Shown here: positions 6,101 through 22,906 of the stretch, piece after piece
Layout of the letters: each line of letters begins with the position of its first letter
Numbering within the stretch: position 1 is the first letter of the stretch
Virus record (IMG/VR): IMGVR_UViG_3300033571_010228
Location: 1-22,906 of that record
Source: a virus
Direction: 5' to 3' (one strand)
Length of the DNA stretch: 22,906 nucleotides
Notes under the pieces: generated by a model
What the model was told of the DNA's origin: nothing
The model's input: the letters and a program-made list of their open reading frames with translations, nothing else
Databases searched by the model: none
Translations under genes and position numbers: made by a program

Positions 6101-7687
6101 ATTTAATGTTCCATCTGATTCGAATGTCCAAACCTTATTTGGATTGCCAGTAGATGTTACTTCAATAGTTGCTTCATTTGGAGCACGAACTTTTCTAGCT
6201 ATTGGCGCAATACCAGTAAATGCTGTAGTTTGATATGTGTTATCTGGGAAACGTAAGCCAGTAGATTCTTCGAATCTCCAACCAACTCCATCTCCATTTT
6301 CAATATGAAATCCACCTGCATTTACAGTTAGGTTTGCAGTTGCTGCAGCCCAGCTATAATAAGCATTTTTAAGTGTTGTAGATGCTGGGATTAAAACTGG
6401 TGGAACTGATGATGGATTAGCTTCACGTGCTTCTATCAGTGCGTCATAAGAATTCTTACTTGCAGGATATCCTGGACCAGTATAATTTGTGGTCATGAAT
6501 AACTCTTCAAGAACTAATAAAGTGCCTTGATAATTATCATAAAGATCGTTGACATCAGACGCTTCGATCTTAAGTGTATTTTTTAATTCAATAGAAGCAG
6601 GTGCAGTTAGTTTAGCTGGACTAAATGTATAATTCCCTTCATAGACACTTAAATTAATTGTATTGTTTGCATTTTTATTATTGTAGATATTTAAAGATCC
6701 AGACCCATCCTGAGATAACAATTCAGGAATAAAAATACCAGCATAACTTTCTCCGCCTGGATCAATGCTAATTGCATGAGAACCCCAACTATTTGCGTCA
6801 ATCCCTTGGGTCCCTATTGTATTACCCTGAATCTTATAGTAACCTAAATTATCTAATACCGAGTCACCTAAACTGTTAACGATGTCGCCACCACTAGGTA
6901 ATTGTAATTTACCATCATTTGCAAATGACCAAATATTATTGTTATTTTGAATTGATATTGAAGAAGCAGTGTCATTAGCTGGAATAGTTATAGAAGCAGT
7001 GCCAGCATTTGTTTGATCTGCGTTGGTAATAATAACACCAGTTAAACTGCTCATTGAGTCATTTCTAAACTGAATATTACCAGTATTACCACCTAACACT
7101 GAACTACCATTGCTATCAAGAATGTCACCACCTTCTGGTAGTGTTAGATTACCATCTGGAGTAAATTTCCACTCATTTCTAGGACCAGCACCACCCATCA
7201 AAATACTAACAGGGGTTTGTGTTAAATTAGAACCTACAAGTAGTGTACCCTGATAGTAAGAGTTAGTGATTCTTGCGCCATCTGCATTTTCTATACCAGC
7301 AGATCCTGTAACTGTAATATCCGCAAATGTGACAGAGTTAGTTGTGTTTAAATCTTGGTTGAATGAACTTCCACCGCCACCAGCAGGTCCTTGTGGACCT
7401 TGTGGTCCAGTAGCACCTTGTGGTCCCTGTGGACCTTGTGGTCCTTGTGGCCCAGTAGCACCTTGTGGTCCCTGTGGCCCAGTTAATAGAGTTGGTTTAT
7501 TTCTTAAGTCATTATAATCGCCACTAAATAATGTTGGCTTATTAGTTAAATCGTTATATGATCCACTAAATACAGATCTAGCGTATAACTCTGTAAAGTT
7601 TTCGTTAACTTTTGTAAATGCTGTGCGTAATGCATCACCATTTCCACTATTTGGTGCTGAACCAATATTAATTGTTTGTTTTGCCAT
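3122..7687 (-). CDS. Very large fibre-like virion protein with collagen-like segment (1521 aa)
   Basis: This is a likely trimeric fibre or whisker-type virion protein, judged from composition rather than a specific family. The start [20 protein letters not shown], then '[13 protein letters not shown]', is a module common at the N-terminus of marine myovirus fibre proteins. Two '[14 protein letters not shown]'-type repeats follow at about residues 41-67. Eleven collagen Gly-X-Y triplets follow at about 70-105. Several 'LP-GGDI-DSNG-SVLGG' repeats come next, suggesting a beta-helical shaft. Residues about 372-520 are duplicated in the next gene. The C-terminal third has repeated '[12 protein letters not shown]' elements and an acidic, Tyr/Trp-rich end. 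The ATG overlaps the gene 14 stop (TAATG), indicating translational coupling. It is far longer than anything at this position in T4. No catalytic motif is recognised. Confidence 0.8.
6128..6573 (-). repeat. 446-bp direct repeat between the two long fibre genes, copy 2
   Basis: This is the partner of 2103-2548, covering residues about 372-520 of the 1521-aa protein. Equal length and lack of gaps suggest a domain-sized duplication kept in frame. Confidence 0.9.
7373..7480 (-). repeat. Collagen-like Gly-X-Y segment
   Basis: Eleven uninterrupted triplets (GPQ, GAT, GPA) lie at residues about 70-105 of the 1521-aa protein and end in a Gly hinge before SSFNQ. Such segments form triple helices in trimeric phage fibres. 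Confidence 0.9.
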
Positions 7688-8724
7688 TATACGATATCCG
7701 TAGTTAATGTTGTTGAATCTGCTGTTAATGTTGTTGAATCTGCTGTACGTAAACTTGATGGAGGAGCTACAATTGCAGCACCTGGTTCACCAAATGGATT
7801 TGTTTCTGTGAAGTCTAATATATCATTACCAAAATCTTCGTATTCGATGTTATCTGCATTAAGATCATTGCGTAGCTCAATTGGATTATCTGCTTCAGTG
7901 ATTAACCACTCTGCGTTTGTAGTAGAACCTACGAGCTTTCTAGCTAAACCACCAGCGCCTGATCCTGAAACTTCAAAGTATCCTTCTTTTCCATCACTAC
8001 GTTTAATCTCATTAATGAACAAATACATCTCAGTCGTTGAATTTGGATACTTGTAATATATGTCTGTAACTTTACCAGTCATATAAATTGGATCGTTATC
8101 AATGTCGTATCCAACTAATTGAGTTACAACTTCTTCTTTTCTAAACTGAGCAGTTGTTGCAACGTTTACAATAGTAACTCTTTGCTTAAATTGTAATTGA
8201 TCTTCTAATGCGTCAATCTCTTCAACACCAGTATTAAAGTCTTCATGACTATACTCGAATGTTTCACATTGAAGTTTATATGTAAAGATATTACCTAATT
8301 GATAGAACGGTTGTTCATGTTCTACGAATTTAATTTCATGGAATGAGTTACTAAATGGGATGTAGATTAAGTCGCCTTCATTTGGTCGACCATTAACAAT
8401 TGTCGTGTCGTTTTCACCAACGAATTGTTCCCATCTACGTTTAGATACAATCCAATTAGATTGATCTCGGATCTCAAGACCAAACTTAGACATAATAGTT
8501 TGTTCACCGGTGTAACCATCAATGTCTTCTAAATACATTTCTAACATATATGCATTACCAAATACAGATGCAATGTCTTCGTTCATAATATCGTCGACAT
8601 TCACAAGTGTACGTGGAATATAGTATACATCTATACCATACATGCGTAAAGATTCAATCACTAAATCTTCGTAAAGATTAGCTTCTGAATGAACCTTTTG
8701 ATTAAAGTATACGTTAGTTGGCAA
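7687..8724 (-). CDS. gp14: Neck protein, T4 gp14-like (TTG start)
   Basis: This is a head-completion/neck component that, with gp13, closes the filled head and receives the tail. The 345-residue product opens MPTNVYFNQKVHSEANLYED, then 'LVIESLRMYGIDVYYIPRT'. A 'SKFGLEIRDQSNWIVSKRRW' segment follows at about residues 79-98. This pattern is typical of cyanophage gp14 and the T4 neck protein family. The start codon is TTG at 8724-8722, with no in-frame ATG nearby. An AGG Shine-Dalgarno overlaps the gene 13 stop eight bases upstream. The C-terminus ends in a short tandem repeat (TADSTTL twice) encoded by a perfect 21-bp DNA duplication. It is longer than T4 gp14 (256 aa), with the excess at the C-terminus. 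Gene 13 lies just upstream, which supports the call. Confidence 0.82.
   Translation of the reverse strand: MPTNVYFNQKVHSEANLYEDLVIESLRMYGIDVYYIPRTLVNVDDIMNEDIASVFGNAYMLEMYLEDIDGYTGEQTIMSKFGLEIRDQSNWIVSKRRWEQFVGENDTTIVNGRPNEGDLIYIPFSNSFHEIKFVEHEQPFYQLGNIFTYKLQCETFEYSHEDFNTGVEEIDALEDQLQFKQRVTIVNVATTAQFRKEEVVTQLVGYDIDNDPIYMTGKVTDIYYKYPNSTTEMYLFINEIKRSDGKEGYFEVSGSGAGGLARKLVGSTTNAEWLITEADNPIELRNDLNADNIEYEDFGNDILDFTETNPFGEPGAAIVAPPSSLRTADSTTLTADSTTLTTDIV
7703..7744 (-). repeat. Perfect 21-bp tandem repeat at the end of gene 14
   Basis: Two identical 21-bp units (7703-7723 and 7724-7744) encode the repeated TADSTTL tail of gp14. They keep the frame, as expected from polymerase slippage. Confidence 0.9.
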
Positions 8725-8728
8725 AGTA

Positions 8729-9469
8729 TTAACCTGTGATAAAATCTACTGGAAGTGAGTATGAGTCTTTTAGTGATTCACCTAATGCTTCAATTTCAGC
8801 ATTGGCTTCTTCTAATATTTTAGAAGCATTAATCTGTACACCACCAGGAAGTTGCATACCATCAAACTTAGATAAGTTAGTACCCCATTGACGTTTAATC
8901 AATGCAGTAGTATATTGTTTAAGCCAAGAATCATTCCACATTTCGGGTGTATCTTCTAATGATACATAAACCTCAGCCATAATAAATTCACCTGGTTGAA
9001 TAGTACCTTTCCAATCGGTATCAATGAATAGTTTATTACCATGCTTTTGATATTGGATTGGTTGTACACCATTTAATAGTGAATCAACTTCTGATAAGTA
9101 TTGTTTCATTTGAACATAATACTGTAATGACTCTGCTTTATACAATGCATAGAAGTCATTCAAATACATTTGGTATTTCATTGAGAACATATTAGTTGCT
9201 GCAAATGAATTTGTAATAGGCAGTACACGAATAACTGAAATAATGTTATCAGTTAATGTAAGATACTTATTGTCGATATCTGTCTGTGTAACTTGAATAG
9301 GAAGATAAGATCTACGTTGACCTTCCATATGCCAATCACGGTATTTCTGAAGTGCTTCATCAACACGATCTTCTACTTGATCGTCATCTACGTTGATCTC
9401 CAAAACTGGAGCACCAAGATTTCTAAAACAGTAATCTATAAGTGTTTGTCTATTTGTTGGAATTGCCAT
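8729..9469 (-). CDS. gp13: Neck protein, T4 gp13-like
   Basis: This is a structural neck component needed for head completion and head-tail joining. The 246-residue protein starts MAIPTNRQTLIDYCFRNLGA and continues PVLEINVDDDQVEDRVDEALQ with KYRDWHMEG. This matches the gp13 N-terminal signature (T4: '[35 protein letters not shown]'-like). The middle region 'FSMKYQMYLNDFYALYK' and the 'MWNDSWLKQYTTALIKRQWG' segment at about 173-192 are typical of the marine homologues. The ATG at 9469 lies one base after the dps stop. The gene 14 TTG start lies four bases beyond its own stop. The order 13-14 is as in T4. It is somewhat shorter than T4 gp13 (309 aa). Confidence 0.85.
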   Translation of the reverse strand: MAIPTNRQTLIDYCFRNLGAPVLEINVDDDQVEDRVDEALQKYRDWHMEGQRRSYLPIQVTQTDIDNKYLTLTDNIISVIRVLPITNSFAATNMFSMKYQMYLNDFYALYKAESLQYYVQMKQYLSEVDSLLNGVQPIQYQKHGNKLFIDTDWKGTIQPGEFIMAEVYVSLEDTPEMWNDSWLKQYTTALIKRQWGTNLSKFDGMQLPGGVQINASKILEEANAEIEALGESLKDSYSLPVDFITG

Positions 9470-9470
9470 A

Positions 9471-9908
9471 TTACGCCTTTAAAATTGAACGTAGCATCCA
9501 TGCTAGTTTTTTATGTGCATCTAAACGTTGAGCTGCATAATCAGAAAGACCATGTTCTTTAGCTTCTTCAGCTACATCAAACAATTGCTGATATAGTCTA
9601 ATCATAATTTGATTATCAGAAGCAAGTTGTGTCATCATACCAGTGGCAGATGGGAAACCTTCTTCGTCTTTAATTTGAGAGATTTGTGAATATACACTTA
9701 AAGAACCAGGTGCGTATTGACCTTGAATTCTAATGTATTCTGCAATGGTGTCGTTTTGCTCGTAAAAGTCACTATAGGCGTCAGCAAAAAACTCATGATA
9801 TTGAGGGAAGTCAGAACCTTCAACATTCCAATGAAACATTTGAGTTTTTAAGTATAATGAAAAGTTCGTAGCAAGAAGTGTACGAAGTAGTTGAACAAGT
9901 TCAGTCAT
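9471..9908 (-). CDS. dps: Dps-like miniferritin
   Basis: This 145-residue ferritin-like four-helix protein is of the Dps family. Cellular Dps dodecamers oxidise and store iron and protect DNA. The signature runs from FHWNVEGSDFPQYHEFF to DTIAEYIRIQG. It aligns H26, H38, D53 and E57 with Listeria Dps ferroxidase ligands H31, H43, D58 and E62. The position of Listeria D47 is Ala42, with an Asp at 43, so one ligand appears lost or shifted. There is no Lys-rich N-terminal tail of the kind that binds DNA in E. coli Dps. A DAHKKLAWMLRS helix closes the protein. It is the first gene of the late operon leading to genes 13 and 14, behind a T4-type late promoter and a hairpin that overlaps its ribosome site. 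It could be a virion protein or act on host iron or oxidative stress; neither is shown here. Confidence 0.85.
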   Translation of the reverse strand: MTELVQLLRTLLATNFSLYLKTQMFHWNVEGSDFPQYHEFFADAYSDFYEQNDTIAEYIRIQGQYAPGSLSVYSQISQIKDEEGFPSATGMMTQLASDNQIMIRLYQQLFDVAEEAKEHGLSDYAAQRLDAHKKLAWMLRSILKA

Positions 9909-9947
9909 AAAAAAATAGCCCTATAGTTTATTTCTATAGAGCTATTT
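9909..9947 (-). terminator. Hairpin with U-tract upstream of dps: terminator and probable RBS-sequestering structure
   Basis: On the minus strand the arms 9947-9934 and 9926-9913 pair over 14 bp (one G-U) around a 7-nt AAAUAAA loop. The 3' arm runs into a seven-T tract at 9915-9909, directly before the dps ATG. It lies 22 bases after the stop of the last fibre-operon gene, so it fits an intrinsic terminator. The 3' arm also contains AGGG (9922-9919), the only Shine-Dalgarno-like stretch before dps. Read-through RNA would therefore have its ribosome site paired. Confidence 0.75.
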
Positions 9948-9950
9948 ATA
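9943..9950 (-). promoter_or_regulatory. T4-type late promoter (TATAAATA) for dps-13-14 operon
   Basis: The minus strand reads TATAAATA at 9950 to 9943, an exact match to the T4 late promoter box recognised by the gp55/gp33 sliding-clamp system. With T4 spacing (box at about -13 to -6), transcription would start near 9937, 29 bases before the dps ATG. The start falls inside the 5' arm of a hairpin. Late transcription is expected for these virion genes. Confidence 0.75.
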
Positions 9951-9968: not shown

Positions 9969-10193
9969 TTACTCTATTTGTTGAACTACTATTGGATCGC
10001 CATTTTCATCGGCAACAGATTGAGTCCATGAATTATCTTCATTCTGAACTAAAACTGTTATTGTAAATAAACCTTCTATTGTTTTATAATAGTCTTGGCG
10101 TATTTTATCTTGAAGAATCTTAACTTCTTCAAATGTAATTGCTTCTTCTTGAAGACCAGTTAATTGATTGTGTATGCTATATTTTTTTGTCAT
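9969..10193 (-). CDS. Small conserved phage protein after the adhesins (74 aa, function unknown)
   Basis: I do not recognise a named family. The ATG at 10193 is chosen over the upstream codon at 10229 because it gives a four-base ATGA overlap with the adhesin stop, typical of translational coupling. The product MTKKYSIHNQLTGLQEEAIT is followed by an amphipathic helix (EEVKILQDKIRQDYYKTIE). Then comes a beta-strand region (GLFTITVLVQNEDNSWTQSV) and an acidic tail. It is soluble, with no membrane segment or signal. Tight coupling to a gp38-like adhesin suggests a small fibre-associated or assembly-helper protein, but that is positional inference only. It is the last gene of the fibre operon and is followed by a terminator-like hairpin. 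Confidence 0.65.
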   Translation of the reverse strand: MTKKYSIHNQLTGLQEEAITFEEVKILQDKIRQDYYKTIEGLFTITVLVQNEDNSWTQSVADENGDPIVVQQIE

Positions 10194-11131
10194 GCTACTG
10201 CTCCATATACTGTTCCGTTTGTTAACCAAGTTATTGAATTTCCATTTAAATTAATTGCTCTACCACCAGCGCCACCCGCTGGATTTGTAAATGCAAAATA
10301 ACCACCTCGGCCACCCGCAGCACCCCAACCGCCGCCACCACCGCCAGCTGAGGTGCCACCGGGGTTACCTATGTTTCCACCTGGATTTCCAGCGGAACCT
10401 CCGCTAGCTGGAGTTCCTCCGCCAGCGAAGCCTCCACCACCACCGGCGCCTCCGCCAGCGGCTGGACCACCGCCAACACCTGGCATAATTCTTCCACCAC
10501 CACCACCACTTCCACTTCCATTACCACCAACACTTCCTGGACCACCACCCCCGCCAGGAGCTCCTGAATTAAAGACTTGACCACCACGACCGCCACCAGC
10601 GCCACCGCCACCGCCAAAGGAACCACCACCACCGCCGCCACCAATAAAACTATTATTGGTAATGCGTAACGATGTTAATATACTCATAGCTGGTCCTCCA
10701 GGAAATGCAGCCGGACTGTTAACTGTTTGAGAACCATCACCACCTTTACCCATAATGAAGCCATTATTCACAAGTGTTATTGTATCTCCTGCAACAAGAC
10801 CACCGGCTATTATTAGAGCTGGTATTGATGTTGAATCCGACCAAACATATACTCCAGAATTTACAGTAATAGTGATATCTGATTTTCCAGCAACATAACC
10901 AGATAACAAAGAAGGATTTACTGTTGCCTGTTGTGTATTTGCAGAAAACACAAAATTAACTGTGGCCCTGTTTGATTTACCGCGTCCATTGCTTTTTGAA
11001 ATGGCACCAGAAGAAACACCAAATAGAGTTCTAACTACAGTACTACCTAAACTAATTGGCGCTGTAGATGAAAGACCTAACTCGGTATTAACGTTAGATA
11101 GTGAAATAGGACCGGATGTTGGTAATGGCAT
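10190..11131 (-). CDS. Glycine-rich tail-fibre adhesin, gp38-like (copy 2)
   Basis: This is a probable receptor-binding tip protein. The 313-residue product opens with the module MPLPTSGPISLSNVNTELGL and continues to 'TLFGVSSGAISKSNGRGKSN'. That N-terminus is common to many marine T4-like fibre and adhesin proteins. A predicted beta-solenoid section follows, with 'DTITLVNNGFIMGKGGDG' and 'ITNNSFIGGGG'. A long Gly-rich tract then runs from about residue 160 to 290 with many GGGGG runs. The end is 'NGNSITWLTNGTVYGAVA'. Such glycine runs resemble the polyglycine-II sandwich of the phage S16/T2 gp38 adhesins, whose variable loops bind the receptor. It is a tandem paralogue of the preceding gene and shares a 72-bp perfect DNA repeat with it. 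The Shine-Dalgarno is AAAGAG before the ATG at 11131. Homology to gp38 is by composition and is not proven. Confidence 0.75.
   Translation of the reverse strand: MPLPTSGPISLSNVNTELGLSSTAPISLGSTVVRTLFGVSSGAISKSNGRGKSNRATVNFVFSANTQQATVNPSLLSGYVAGKSDITITVNSGVYVWSDSTSIPALIIAGGLVAGDTITLVNNGFIMGKGGDGSQTVNSPAAFPGGPAMSILTSLRITNNSFIGGGGGGGSFGGGGGAGGGRGGQVFNSGAPGGGGGPGSVGGNGSGSGGGGGRIMPGVGGGPAAGGGAGGGGGFAGGGTPASGGSAGNPGGNIGNPGGTSAGGGGGGWGAAGGRGGYFAFTNPAGGAGGRAINLNGNSITWLTNGTVYGAVA
10881..10952 (-). repeat. 72-bp perfect repeat shared by the two adhesins, copy 1
   Basis: This is identical to 11858-11929 (offset 977). It encodes 'FSANTQQATVNPSLLSGYVA' and the next few residues, just before the beta-rich section of each adhesin. 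Recombination here could swap or fuse the two distal Gly-rich parts. Confidence 0.9.
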
Positions 11132-16853: not shown

Positions 16854-16882
16854 AATAGATCCTTTATTAACTTAGATCTATT
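16854..16882 (-). promoter_or_regulatory. RBS-overlapping hairpin at the fibre-operon leader
   Basis: Minus-strand arms AATAGATC (16882-16875) and GATCTATT (16861-16854) are perfectly complementary over 8 bp around a 13-nt loop. The 3' arm takes in the last two bases of the AAGGA Shine-Dalgarno (16864-16860) and the spacer to the ATG at 16851. The predicted late start near 16873 lies inside the loop, so late RNA would lack the whole 5' arm. There is no U-tract, so it is not a terminator. Confidence 0.6.
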
Positions 16883-16886
16883 TATA
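16879..16886 (-). promoter_or_regulatory. T4-type late promoter (TATAAATA) for the tail-fibre operon
   Basis: The minus strand reads TATAAATA from 16886 to 16879, an exact T4 late box in the only gap between the sugar cassette and the fibre operon. With T4 spacing the start would be near 16873, about 22 bases before the ATG at 16851. It marks the boundary between the two gene groups and overlaps the 5' arm of an inverted repeat. Confidence 0.75.
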
Positions 16887-18252: not shown

Positions 18253-19037
18253 ATTTTTACTAATTCTTCTAAAGTATATAAGTTTTTTAAATAAGACGAA
18301 GTTTCTTTTAATACACTAACTTCAATATCTCCATCTCTTCTTTTAATAAAGTTAATATTAAAATCTGCATTATTAACTTCTTTAAATTTATTTACAATCG
18401 TTAAAACTGAATTACCCTTACCATGACCGAGTGATTCTATTCTATTTGCCGGCAAATCAACCGCTTTAATAATAGCATCACATATCTCGTTTACATGTAC
18501 ATAGTCTCTAATACAAGTTCCATCTGGTGTATTATAATCGTTTCCATAAATGTTAAACTGTTTAGTATCTATAGCTTTAATTAAAGCATAAAACAAACCA
18601 TCTGGATTAGTTGGTTCTATGCCATCAGAACCTATAACATTATAAAATCTAAAAATAGTGTATGGAATACTATTAGTTGAACAATGTTGTTGAATGATTT
18701 CTTCACACGCCTTTTTAGATATTGCATATGGACAATTCACATATTCCACTGCACCAGTTGAAGCGAATATAAAATTCTTAGTCTTTATATTTAGAACGTT
18801 TATCGTTCCATTAATATTTGTATCATAATATAATAGTGGATCTTTTACAGATTCTCCAACTTGTACTTTAGCAGCAAGGTGAATAACTACATCATATTCT
18901 TCGTCAATATTAAATTGATTCCTAATATCGATTTTATATGTAGGGGTTCCGTCGATATCTAATGTGTCAACTATTTTAAGTTTCTTAACCAAGTGTTGGC
19001 CAATATATCCTTCTGAACCAGTGATTAGTATTTTCAT
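18249..19037 (-). CDS. NAD-dependent sugar epimerase/dehydratase, GalE-like
   Basis: This extended short-chain dehydrogenase is predicted to act on UDP- or other NDP-sugars. The Rossmann motif GSEGYIG is at residues 7-13. 'HLAAKVQVGESVKDPLLYYD' at about 53-72 matches the GalE pattern (HLAA..VGES...P..YY..N). The catalytic set is ST at 93-94 and YxxxK at Tyr104 and Lys108. The substrate-loop signature YNTPDGTCIRDYVHV is close to bacterial UDP-glucose 4-epimerase. At 262 residues it is clearly shorter than typical GalE (~338), mainly through compact loops and C-terminus. The ATG overlaps the upstream glycosyltransferase stop (ATGA). The first 27 codons are duplicated upstream at 19952-20034 as part of a chimeric ORF. 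Precise substrate is not readable from sequence. Confidence 0.87.
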   Translation of the reverse strand: MKILITGSEGYIGQHLVKKLKIVDTLDIDGTPTYKIDIRNQFNIDEEYDVVIHLAAKVQVGESVKDPLLYYDTNINGTINVLNIKTKNFIFASTGAVEYVNCPYAISKKACEEIIQQHCSTNSIPYTIFRFYNVIGSDGIEPTNPDGLFYALIKAIDTKQFNIYGNDYNTPDGTCIRDYVHVNEICDAIIKAVDLPANRIESLGHGKGNSVLTIVNKFKEVNNADFNINFIKRRDGDIEVSVLKETSSYLKNLYTLEELVKI

Positions 19038-19038
19038 T
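18956..19038 (-). repeat. 83-bp direct repeat, copy 1 (epimerase 5' end)
   Basis: This encodes the first 27 residues of the epimerase. By hand alignment it matches 19952-20034 with four mismatches over 83 bp, at an offset of exactly 996 bases. The two copies flank glycosyltransferase copy A in direct orientation, so recombination between them would remove that gene. Confidence 0.9.
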
Positions 19039-19822
19039 TATTAAAAAGCTCTTCTAAGTAACTACCTTTTGGTGGCAGTTTTCCTTTCAGGTTATACTTT
19101 TGATTTAATTGAGAGTTCCATATATGCGTAACATACGAATTTTTATTTTTTTCTCTAGCTACATTTATTAGATTTTTCTCAATAAACACATCTATCTCAT
19201 TCCAATGAATTGCAAAGAAAGCCTCTGCAGATAAAACTTCAGAAGAAAGGTTGTTTTCTTTTATAATATTTGAGCATAAAACTGGACCAGCTAATGCCCA
19301 TTCTGGAAATTCATAGTTATACTTAATGCAACACTCTTCAAATTTTTTACAAAATAATTCTACAAGTTCGTAATTACCAAAATGTAAAACTGCACTATTT
19401 GTATACCATTGTTCTCCAACAGCTTCATACGCTATAACAATCTTTTTATTTTCTTTTAGTTTTTTAAACTCAGACTGATCCTTTAAACAAAAGCAGTCTG
19501 CATCAAAATACCATCCACCAAATTGTCTAAGAACCATTATTCTAAATGCATCAGAAAACATTGCAAGATTAGCGTATTGTTTATTATTATCTTGTTCTAA
19601 ACCAAATGGATGTCTTTGCTTATATTTAAACTTATGTTCTTCTGGTAAGAACTCACGTATATCTCTTAATGTAGCACCATTAGGAACATTTTCTAATTTG
19701 TCATAAGACCAAAGATTAACCTCAAAGTTGCTTTTTACAAATGATTCTATACACTTTATCTCATATAAAGATAAAGTTCCGTGCCAAACAAAATGAGCTA
19801 TTTCACGTTCCAAAGTCTGCAT
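19034..19822 (-). CDS. DXD-motif glycosyltransferase, Gly_transf_sug (GT32-like) type, copy A
   Basis: This is a probable capsule/LPS-type glycosyltransferase of 262 residues. It starts MQTLEREIAHFVWHGTLSLY and has 'FEVNLWSYDKLE' and the family core 'SDAFRIMVLRQFGGWYFDAD'. The DXD nucleotide-sugar/metal motif is Asp107-Ala-Asp109. The later segment 'WALAGPVLCSNII' and the end 'LPPKGSYLEELFNK' are also shared with paralogue B at 20691-21665. I chose the ATG at 19822 because similarity to copy B begins there; an in-frame ATG at 19837 also exists. It overlaps the upstream chimeric ORF, and its stop overlaps the epimerase start. It lacks the C-terminal DUF4214-like domain of copy B. It is flanked by an 83-bp direct repeat. 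Confidence 0.83.
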   Translation of the reverse strand: MQTLEREIAHFVWHGTLSLYEIKCIESFVKSNFEVNLWSYDKLENVPNGATLRDIREFLPEEHKFKYKQRHPFGLEQDNNKQYANLAMFSDAFRIMVLRQFGGWYFDADCFCLKDQSEFKKLKENKKIVIAYEAVGEQWYTNSAVLHFGNYELVELFCKKFEECCIKYNYEFPEWALAGPVLCSNIIKENNLSSEVLSAEAFFAIHWNEIDVFIEKNLINVAREKNKNSYVTHIWNSQLNQKYNLKGKLPPKGSYLEELFNK

Positions 19823-20033
19823 GATTAATTCTGTCATTAAATGACTTAGAAAATATTTTTTGATTATTAGTATTGGCTAAAGGTCGTGTTTTTTCAAGAT
19901 CACTATCATTAAATTCTGTAAACGCACATAGAGGGTATGCTAGATGTATATTATCTAATGTGTCAACTATCTTAAGTTTCTTAACTAGGTGTTGACCAAT
20001 ATATCCTTCTGAACCAGTGATTAGTATTTTCAT
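19803..20033 (-). pseudogene. Chimeric ORF: epimerase 5' end fused to GT25-type C-terminal remnant (76 aa)
   Basis: The first 27 residues (MKILITGSEGYIGQHLVKKL plus KIVDTLD) are identical to the start of the downstream epimerase. The next 49 residues are unrelated to epimerases. They contain 'YPLCAFTEFNDSDLEK' and end INHADFGT. This resembles the C-terminus of the GT25 protein at 21646 ('NPILVHRQHEDSDIEI' ... KYHADFGT). The ORF is intact, starts with ATG in a TAATG overlap with the upstream gene and overlaps the downstream glycosyltransferase start by about 20 bases. It cannot fold as an epimerase. It is best read as a recombination remnant that may still couple translation. Expression as a small protein is not excluded. 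Confidence 0.75.
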
Positions 20034-20034
20034 T
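19952..20034 (-). repeat. 83-bp direct repeat, copy 2 (chimeric ORF 5' end)
   Basis: This is the second copy of the epimerase start. Identity ends abruptly after the codons for TLD, where the GT25-like remnant begins. This marks the recombination junction near 19952. Confidence 0.9.
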
Positions 20035-20698: not shown

Positions 20699-21665
20699 AT
20701 TTTCTATATTCCTTTGAATTCATAATACAATTTGCTATTTCATTTAATGGCATATTGGAATGTACATAATTTCTTAAGCCTGAAATATCGGCTGATCTTT
20801 TTAATAAGTCATTATATAATTTATTTACACTTATAAATCTATTATAGAACGCAATGGTGTCTTTAACTTGGGCACTATTTTTATTTGTTGATATGTCTAA
20901 ATTATTAAAAAGACTATGTATTATAGAACCCTTTGGAGGATTTTCTTTATCATATCCAAGTTCATTTAAACTAGAACACCATATATGAACTGCATATGCG
21001 TCTTTAATTTCAGGTTTAGCTTTATCTGCTTCTTCAGGTTTAACTAGCCAATGTCTATTTTTCCAATATATTGGAAAAAATATATGTGAAGGTAATAAAC
21101 CATCAAAAAGTTTGTGCTTTATACTAACCTCCGCCATTAATGCTGGACCAAAATCTGTAAATGTTTTAGCTATATTATTTTGTTCTTTTAGCTTTATATC
21201 TAATTCTTTTTTAAATAACTCAGCGATTTCTTTTGATAGATAAAATATGCTATTGCCAAAAATATTAATGTGAATATATTCTTGTGAAATAGCATATGGA
21301 ATATTATTTCTTAGTGTCTTAAACTCATTTGCAGATTTTAAACAATAGCAATCTGAGTCTACCCACCATCCAGGTTCTTTACATAAAAGATTGATTCTAA
21401 AGACATCAGCAAAAACAGCAATGTTCGCATGACTAGTTGATTTTCCTTCAATGACTTTTTCTAAAGTTTTATACTTAGTCAAATCCGTTTCTGATAAAAT
21501 TTCTCTAGCGTCTCTACTAATAGTGCCATCTATCTGTAAATTTGTATAAGACCATAACTGTACATTAAACCCATTGCGTATAAATGATTTTATACACGTT
21601 TCTTCAAATGTAGACAATTTACCATGCCAAAAAAAGTGAGCTATTTCAGGTTCCAAAGTCTGCAT
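20691..21665 (-). CDS. DXD-motif glycosyltransferase with C-terminal DUF4214-like domain, copy B
   Basis: This 324-residue paralogue of copy A starts MQTLEPEIAHFFWHGKLSTF. The family core is 'FADVFRINLLCKEPGWWVDSD' split by the DXD motif Asp103-Ser-Asp105. 'TFTDFGPALMAEV' and 'NPPKGSIIHSLFNN' follow. After about residue 277 it has an extra domain 'VNKLYNDLLKRSADISGLRN' plus 'YVHSNMPLNEIANCIMNSKE'. This fits DUF4214, which is often attached to surface-glycan enzymes. The ATG at 21665 is chosen because similarity to copy A starts there. A TTG start at 21704 with an AGGGA Shine-Dalgarno would add 13 residues and is a real alternative. The gene start overlaps the upstream stop by 20 bases in the same sequence context as copy A. 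Confidence 0.83.
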   Translation of the reverse strand: MQTLEPEIAHFFWHGKLSTFEETCIKSFIRNGFNVQLWSYTNLQIDGTISRDAREILSETDLTKYKTLEKVIEGKSTSHANIAVFADVFRINLLCKEPGWWVDSDCYCLKSANEFKTLRNNIPYAISQEYIHINIFGNSIFYLSKEIAELFKKELDIKLKEQNNIAKTFTDFGPALMAEVSIKHKLFDGLLPSHIFFPIYWKNRHWLVKPEEADKAKPEIKDAYAVHIWCSSLNELGYDKENPPKGSIIHSLFNNLDISTNKNSAQVKDTIAFYNRFISVNKLYNDLLKRSADISGLRNYVHSNMPLNEIANCIMNSKEYRKYE

Positions 21666-22906
21666 GATATTTTCTTTTCTTAAAGTTATCGGAATATTGA
21701 TCAAAGATTCCCTGATATTGATTTCGTTCTATTTCAATATCACTATCTTCATGCTGTCGATGCACAAGTATAGGGTTAGTGAATAAAGCTTTACAATCTT
21801 CATAAAAATAATTCCAAATATTATCAGCTTCAACTACAACTGGATAATTTAATTCTAATAGTTTTTTAGCACCTGACTTAGATATCATATAAGCGTGCGT
21901 ACCATGAACATAATCTAGCGTTTGCGTTGGATAATGTGATTTATGTATTGTCGTTTGTCCTATAGAAAACTCAACTTTATCTAGATAAGTAATAGATTCT
22001 TTTTCTATTAATCTATATGGTGATTGTTTAGTTTTTAATTTACCATTAAAAAATTGATTAGACGAAAAACTACCTAAAATTAAAAAATCAAATTTGTTTG
22101 GTTCCAAATTAAAGTCTTTAATGAACTGTTTAAATTCTAGAGTTAACTCTGCATCATCTTCTAAAATTATAGCATATTCTAAATTTTGTTCTATTATTTT
22201 TTTAGCAATTTCTACATGTGATAATGCGCAAGCGATTTCAGTTTTTTTTAATTCTCTGTGTATTAAAACAGATTTTTCTTTATTATAAATTTTACTAGTA
22301 TCATTAGGTAATTTTTTACCATCAACAGCTTTTACAATTTCATAATTCTTAATACCAATATTTGCTAACCTACCTTCTATTAATTGTTTCCTATCAGGTC
22401 TACGCTCAAGGTTAACTACAAAAATAGGAAGTTTATTATCTAATGTAGTTGGTTCATATGGATTGTATTTAAATTTATTTTTAAATTCATCTGAATTACA
22501 CATACCAGCTTGTATATCAGTTAATGATATGCGCGAATTTAAATAGTGATTTAAGCCGCTTTCGTCAGCTTCTCTACCTAACATTGTTCTATATAAGCGT
22601 TGTATTTCTTGTTTTCTATTCATTGTCTTCAATCCATTATAGTACACTTGTGTTTCATCGCTTTTACGTTGTCTTATTTCATCAGGAGCTTTAGTTATAG
22701 ACCCTTCATTAAACATTAATCTCTCACCCCTTATAATAGTAGAGTCATCATCTACATAATATGTTGCTTTATTGTGAATTAAATCACACGATAAGATTAA
22801 ATCTTCCCAACCAAATGTAGTTTTATATCCACCAATTTCTTTTAGTTTTTTAGTTTTTATTGCAGAGTTTAATATACCACCAAATGAAAAATACGATAAA
22901 TTATAA
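21646..22906 (-). CDS. Multidomain glycosyltransferase: GT-A C-terminal part + DUF4214-like + GT25 (5' end beyond window)
   Basis: The reading frame stays open from the stop at 21646 to the right edge, giving 419 visible residues. The first 63 visible residues include 'FSFGGILNSAIKTKKLKEIG' and 'TTFGWEDLILSCDLIH'. That matches the C-terminal W-E-D region of family-2-like transferases. Next, at visible residues about 95-145, is a DUF4214-like stretch ('IQRLYRTMLGREADESGLNH' ... 'SDEFKNKF'). Then follows a GT25 (LPS-type) domain with 'LPIFVVNLERRPDRKQLIEG', 'ACALSHVEIAKKI' and ILEDDAELT, and a C-terminus ending YHADFGT. An ATG at 22716 behind a GGGGTGAGAG stretch could yield a shorter DUF4214-GT25 product, but homology runs through it. 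Fusion of two transferases suggests consecutive glycan steps. Confidence 0.8.
   Translation of the reverse strand, partial: YNLSYFSFGGILNSAIKTKKLKEIGGYKTTFGWEDLILSCDLIHNKATYYVDDDSTIIRGERLMFNEGSITKAPDEIRQRKSDETQVYYNGLKTMNRKQEIQRLYRTMLGREADESGLNHYLNSRISLTDIQAGMCNSDEFKNKFKYNPYEPTTLDNKLPIFVVNLERRPDRKQLIEGRLANIGIKNYEIVKAVDGKKLPNDTSKIYNKEKSVLIHRELKKTEIACALSHVEIAKKIIEQNLEYAIILEDDAELTLEFKQFIKDFNLEPNKFDFLILGSFSSNQFFNGKLKTKQSPYRLIEKESITYLDKVEFSIGQTTIHKSHYPTQTLDYVHGTHAYMISKSGAKKLLELNYPVVVEADNIWNYFYEDCKALFTNPILVHRQHEDSDIEIERNQYQGIFDQYSDNFKKRKYHADFGT

Follow-up and report, generated by a model that had tools for sequence, protein, structure and literature searches.

The window, as the whole stretch of 22,906 nucleotides is called here, comes from a T4-like phage that is uncultured, and represents part of its genome; the main genes all lie on the minus strand. 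Homologues of gp14, gp15 and gp17 in these 22.9 kb mark it as T4-like. It carries a gene for a ferritin-like Dps protein, followed downstream by the neck genes gp13 and gp14, the tail sheath stabiliser gp15 and the terminase gp17. Upstream of dps are tail-fibre-like genes, which stand themselves behind a second late box at 16886 and, from their tail-fibre-like character, are probably late. The features used below are as follows.

7687..8724, minus strand: gp14-like neck gene (head closure Hc2; PF11649, phrog_460)
8729..9469, minus strand: gp13-like neck gene (head-tail adaptor Ad2; phrog_211)
9471..9908, minus strand: dps (ferritin-like, 145 aa; PF00210, E 1.8e-23; phrog_3636)
9909..9915, minus strand: run of seven T from the foot of the stem to the dps ATG (9908)
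9913..9926, minus strand: hairpin 3' arm, CTATAGGGCTATTT
9919..9922, minus strand: Shine-Dalgarno-like AGGG of dps, within the 3' arm
9927..9933, minus strand: hairpin loop, AAATAAA, 7 nt
9934..9947, minus strand: hairpin 5' arm, AAATAGCTCTATAG, overlapping the late box
9937, minus strand: predicted late transcription start (A), placed by T4 spacing with the box at -13 to -6
9943..9950, minus strand: T4-type late promoter box, TATAAATA, exact consensus
9969..10229, minus strand: co-directional gene 5' of dps, 86 aa
16854..16882, minus strand: second hairpin, AATAGATCT / GGATCTATT, 9 pairs (one G-U), over the Shine-Dalgarno (SD) sequence AAGGA
16879..16886, minus strand: second late box, with the layout seen at dps, before a tail-protein-like gene (start 16851)

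The 86-aa gene ends about 21 nt before the stem and 61 nt before dps; at this distance a ribosome finishing there should not keep the hairpin open. The ATG of gp13 lies just past the dps stop and has an SD sequence of its own, AAAGG; a check of the gp13 start region for folding revealed nothing unusual. Elsewhere in the window, an 83-nt direct repeat (95% identical; 18956-19038 and 19952-20034) arises because an epimerase-like gene has its 5' end repeated, in truncated form, at a distance of 1 kb, and another repeat pair of 106 nt (78%) lies at 19736-19841 and 21579-21684.

T4 late promoters consist of a TATA box of 8 bp, placed roughly one helical turn ahead of the start (PMC2988020). The box before dps agrees with this type in sequence, being an 8-bp box with no -35 box and with AT-rich DNA downstream. 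The window contains far fewer copies of ATAAATA than expected (2 seen, 16.6 expected), and both copies lie on the coding strand of intergenic gaps, just upstream of genes. The promoter is presumed to be used, and T4 spacing would place the start of transcription at 9937. In S-PM2 the T4-type late box takes the form NATAAATA (PMC2984593). Among 64 dps leaders, a set with some near-duplicates, 23 have this form within 90 bases, often as NATAAATAgtctATAGGA, and the homologues L008, L016, L019, L035 and L053 are among them. Expression of dps from a putative late promoter is thus widespread beyond the window's own clade, as judged by these boxes.

The late box lies over the 5' arm of a stem of 14 pairs, one of them G-U and only 4 of them G-C. 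The overlap of box and stem described in the earlier note, with AGGG in the 3' arm, was confirmed at 9950-9943 (box), 9947-9934 (5' arm) and 9926-9913 (3' arm), and AGGG (9922-9919) is the sole Shine-Dalgarno-like sequence before dps. On this strand of the window the stem ranks second among ungapped stems. The strongest is found at 1409-1371, inside the opening codons of the gene resembling gp15, and has 16 pairs and a 7-base loop with the core AAAGTGTATCG...CGGTACACTTT.

The folding check suggested earlier was run. For the leader of read-through RNA the folding energy is -28.5 kcal/mol (mean of shuffles -13.8, z -4.6), while RNA beginning at 9937 reaches -2.7 kcal/mol and is not better than its shuffles. 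A start at 9937 drops 10 of the 14 bases of the 5' arm and leaves four possible pairs, so the earlier arithmetic was right. If that start is assumed, the mean unpaired probability of the dps SD is predicted to rise from about 0.001 in read-through RNA to 0.55 in late RNA. When the box was held fixed and the leader shuffled, the pairing of the promoter segment was equalled in 1 of 3000 shuffles. The arrangement of box and stem is real and unlikely to be due to chance.

The same dps leader was found in six other contigs, and a search of all viral contigs with the leader pattern gave no match beyond these known relatives. The box TATAAATA is kept in 6/6, and the 3' arm is identical in every relative with a readable one. 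Two forms of the 5' arm occur, GCTCTATAG (the window, L002 and L005) and CAGTTATAG (L003, L004 and L082). The first form gives a complete and identical SD-masking stem, and L006 agrees with the window over the readable part of its 5' arm, its leader being masked further along. In the second form, the three central pairs facing the SD are lost, and the SD of read-through RNA is predicted to be unpaired at about 0.5 rather than 0.001. Conservation among relatives thus extends to the box and the 3' arm and fails at the central pairs in 3/6, two of which (L003 and L004) are near-identical. Compensatory changes, which the earlier note had proposed to look for, did not appear in this comparison: none of the relatives' leaders compensates for the broken stem of L003/L004 and L082.

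The genes upstream of dps differ between the two groups. In the complete-stem contigs various co-directional genes end about 61-63 nt before dps. In L003/L004 the upstream gene is divergent and has its own late box back to back with that of dps, so that read-through is not expected there; the sequence of L082 stops too near dps to show the upstream gene. The pattern fits a device retained only where RNA can run in, with very few independent cases behind it. The paired late boxes of L003 and L004 are separated by about 13 bases and have opposite orientations, one facing dps and the other a divergent gene of 129 aa.

A similar arrangement is found at the second late box of the window. There, AATAGATCT, which lies at the box's end, forms pairs with GGATCTATT across AAGGA, and the unpaired probability of this SD is predicted to be 0.26 in read-through RNA and 0.88 in late RNA. 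The pairing was equalled by 39 of 3000 leader shuffles, and the hairpin has no T-run behind it.

A wider survey covered 349 late-type sites, counted after deduplication and drawn from contigs of T4-like phages and a portion of T4. The set is phylogenetically non-independent, and gp13 and dps loci are over-represented in it owing to the searches by which they were collected. Promoter segments pair with their own leaders at -3.37 kcal/mol and with swapped leaders at -2.51 (z -9.8), whereas eight 7-mer control words of the same composition gave own-versus-swapped z values from -3.7 to +0.2. Exact 6-base complements of positions -8 to -3 occur in 17 own leaders against 5.05 expected, a number reached in 0 of 5000 permutations; for the control words, 6-base complements in the own leader were not enriched. 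Strong SD-hiding hairpins, at cut-offs of the author's choice, were about 3-fold enriched, with 8.3% in own and 2.8% in swapped leaders. The pipeline recovered the known users of such leaders: T4 gene e, along with several genes for homing endonucleases. The list of strong hairpins also contains gp13-like genes, another dps and a 54-aa protein found again and again in different phages. Of the 78 gp13 leaders, 56 carry a late box no more than 75 bases away, and in the gp13 set own pairing is stronger than that of swaps (z -7.4).

SD masking as an average trend was ruled out: mean SD accessibility is almost the same in own and swapped leaders over all late sites (z -1.7), and in the gp13 set it is no different from swaps (z 0.2). 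Since the two means are nearly equal, SD hiding must be restricted to a minority of sites. No clear dependence on the orientation of the upstream gene appeared among the surveyed sites (hairpin sites with co-directional upstream genes, 8.5% against 4.2%; pairing by orientation, rank test, p 0.28). Covariation at -5 against GAGTA/GACTA gave p 0.017 in one test and p 0.24 in the other, and is given no weight.

Two further features were noticed. The recurrent protein of 54-55 aa (MAKMIEEVIVIKLSKL...; L181:15740, L174:14142, L193:13256, L220:3023) has no PHROG match and is of unknown function; GATAAATACTC...GGAGTATT stands repeatedly before its ATG, with the end of the late box pairing with the SD. 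At L164:354-410 (contig G003), GACCTGC CATAAATATGTG GCAGGTC and then TATTATTTTATT precede a small gene; the hairpin so formed resembles a terminator, and its loop contains a late box.

The explanation favoured here, with moderate confidence, is that the dps hairpin is a read-through insulator, acting as an SD mask, a terminator or both, from which late initiation escapes. A T4-type late promoter would initiate inside the 5' arm of the hairpin, and the hairpin would prevent dps from being expressed from RNA entering from the upstream tail-fibre genes. In such read-through RNA, which is presumed to exist, the complete stem would hide the dps SD; the stem with its T-run may also end the transcript, and the two effects are compatible. 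RNA from about 9937 would be unable to form the stem and would be translated, so that dps expression would be tied to its own late promoter.

The documented logic of T4 genes e, soc and 49 (PMC3014915), by which an SD is hidden in RNA, had been cited correctly in the earlier note, which extended it to dps and the neck genes as a means of keeping them off until late infection. This interpretation is supported in part. The idea of a silent early RNA is weaker than claimed, since the genes directly upstream look late and stand behind another late box. The effect may consequently be to insulate dps from read-through of the fibre operon rather than to silence early RNA. The extension of the claim to the neck genes also holds only in part. 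Masking of the SD would act directly on dps only, as gp13 has its own SD; to hold back the neck genes as well, the hairpin would have to terminate transcription, or gp13 translation would have to be coupled to that of dps. As for the means, the site is predicted to be paired as had been claimed, but the T-run behind the stem, a layout absent from the earlier note, makes the hairpin a strong candidate for an intrinsic terminator as well, and the ribosome site need not be what silences read-through RNA.

That candidate leads to the principal alternative, which is given appreciable weight though less than the insulator: the hairpin may be mainly the intrinsic terminator of the tail-fibre operon, with the late promoter of the next operon placed over its 5' arm for the sake of compactness. 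Read-through RNA would then end before the dps ATG, late-start RNA lacking the stem would not be terminated, and SD masking would be a by-product of crowding. The likelihoods attached to these two explanations overlap, as the insulator includes both modes of action. The stem, the 7-nt loop and the seven T right before the ATG make up a stable hairpin with a T-run, and among the terminator-like sites listed for the window it is alone in having a solid T-run. On the d'Aubenton Carafa scale, on which positive values suggest a terminator and whose formula is tuned to E. coli, the d-score is about +28.6 to +29 in the window, +19.9 in L002 and +11.0 in L005, falling to about -41 and -50 in relatives whose stem is broken; L162, which is the contig of L002, stands at the top of the 349 late sites. 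Co-directional upstream genes are predicted by a terminator as well, and control of gp13 and gp14 would be explained too. Against it, the T-run shortens from 7 (window) to 6 (L002) and 5 (L005) while SD pairing stays unchanged. Over the 349 sites terminator-like hairpins are not enriched at late boxes (2.0%, against 2.1% at control sites), whereas promoter-leader pairing is, and the second late-box hairpin of the window has no T-run. At dps itself, SD hiding and termination would both strike only RNA from upstream and would both be escaped by a start at 9937, so they are inseparable there.

It is rather unlikely that the promoter and a conserved late leader, sharing related AT-rich words, simply fold by chance with no effect. 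CTATAG, which is its own reverse complement, is present twice and can pair with itself; the leader ATAGAA(A/T)TAAACTATAGGGC is constant even where the stem is broken, and in other T4-like dps leaders TATAGG follows right after the box with little pairing. Eight pairs, however, lie past the CTATAG repeat, those over the SD included, and the rarity of equally strong leader shuffles, together with the enrichment of own-leader pairing across T4-like late sites, speaks against coincidence. An inverted repeat acting as DNA, as operator for a repressor of the late promoter in the manner of I-TevI in T4, is highly improbable: the repeat does overlap the promoter and has that precedent (PMC2988022), but there is no candidate protein, one half-site varies among relatives while the RNA 3' arm is constant, and the repeat takes in the SD and stops near the ATG, as expected of an RNA device.

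For e, soc, 49 and I-TevI, concealment of the SD by RNA structure is established, and removal of the structure by late initiation is documented for e and I-TevI (PMC3014915). Similar layouts have been described for I-TevI, I-TevII, I-TevIII, segB and mobE, and I-TevI also represses at its own late promoter in T4 (PMC2988022). The closest likeness is to T4 gene e, since at dps TATAAATA likewise overlaps the 5' arm of an SD-hiding stem and a late start would remove that arm. Early transcripts are known to enter e, whereas the genes upstream of dps look late; the hairpin effect at e was measured, at about 100-fold (PMC3014915), whereas at dps it is predicted, and the dps stem is followed by a T-run. 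T4 soc, 49 and I-TevI share with dps a ribosome binding site inside an RNA helix on longer transcripts, and at I-TevI too the late start leaves out the 5' part (PMC3014915, PMC2988022). Compared by description, these three lie within early or middle transcripts, while dps lies between tail-fibre and neck genes. The leaders of the homing endonuclease genes segB (T4) and mobE (Aeh1) have the same layout as dps, but they belong to accessory selfish genes rather than to a Dps/neck operon. Intrinsic (rho-independent) terminators resemble the dps hairpin in stem, short loop, T-run and strong d-score, and differ in that the dps stem is AT-rich, with a late promoter over its 5' arm and an SD in its 3' arm. 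The literature searched on dps, or on late promoters overlapping terminators, in T4-like phages yielded nothing pertinent. The dps leader probably joins the SD-hiding leaders of the e, soc, 49 and I-TevI type, with an additional terminator-like T-run.

A broader proposal, tentative and on the whole doubtful, is that the dps hairpin is both intrinsic terminator and SD mask, one late start inside the 5' arm undoing both, and that T4-like phages in general use late promoters complementary to their own leaders as an added level of late control, one that extends to structural (neck) genes far outside the small set known from T4.

The T4 device has so far been described for a few genes inside early or middle transcripts. 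If it guards the leaders of dps and neck genes in environmental T4-like phages, RNA structure would join the late sigma factor in setting late expression there, and the need to pair with its own leader would place a second constraint on the promoter sequence. From the statistical excess in this survey comes a list of leaders for testing in cultured phages. If true, a control trick of a few T4 genes would be extended to Dps and, elsewhere, to neck genes.
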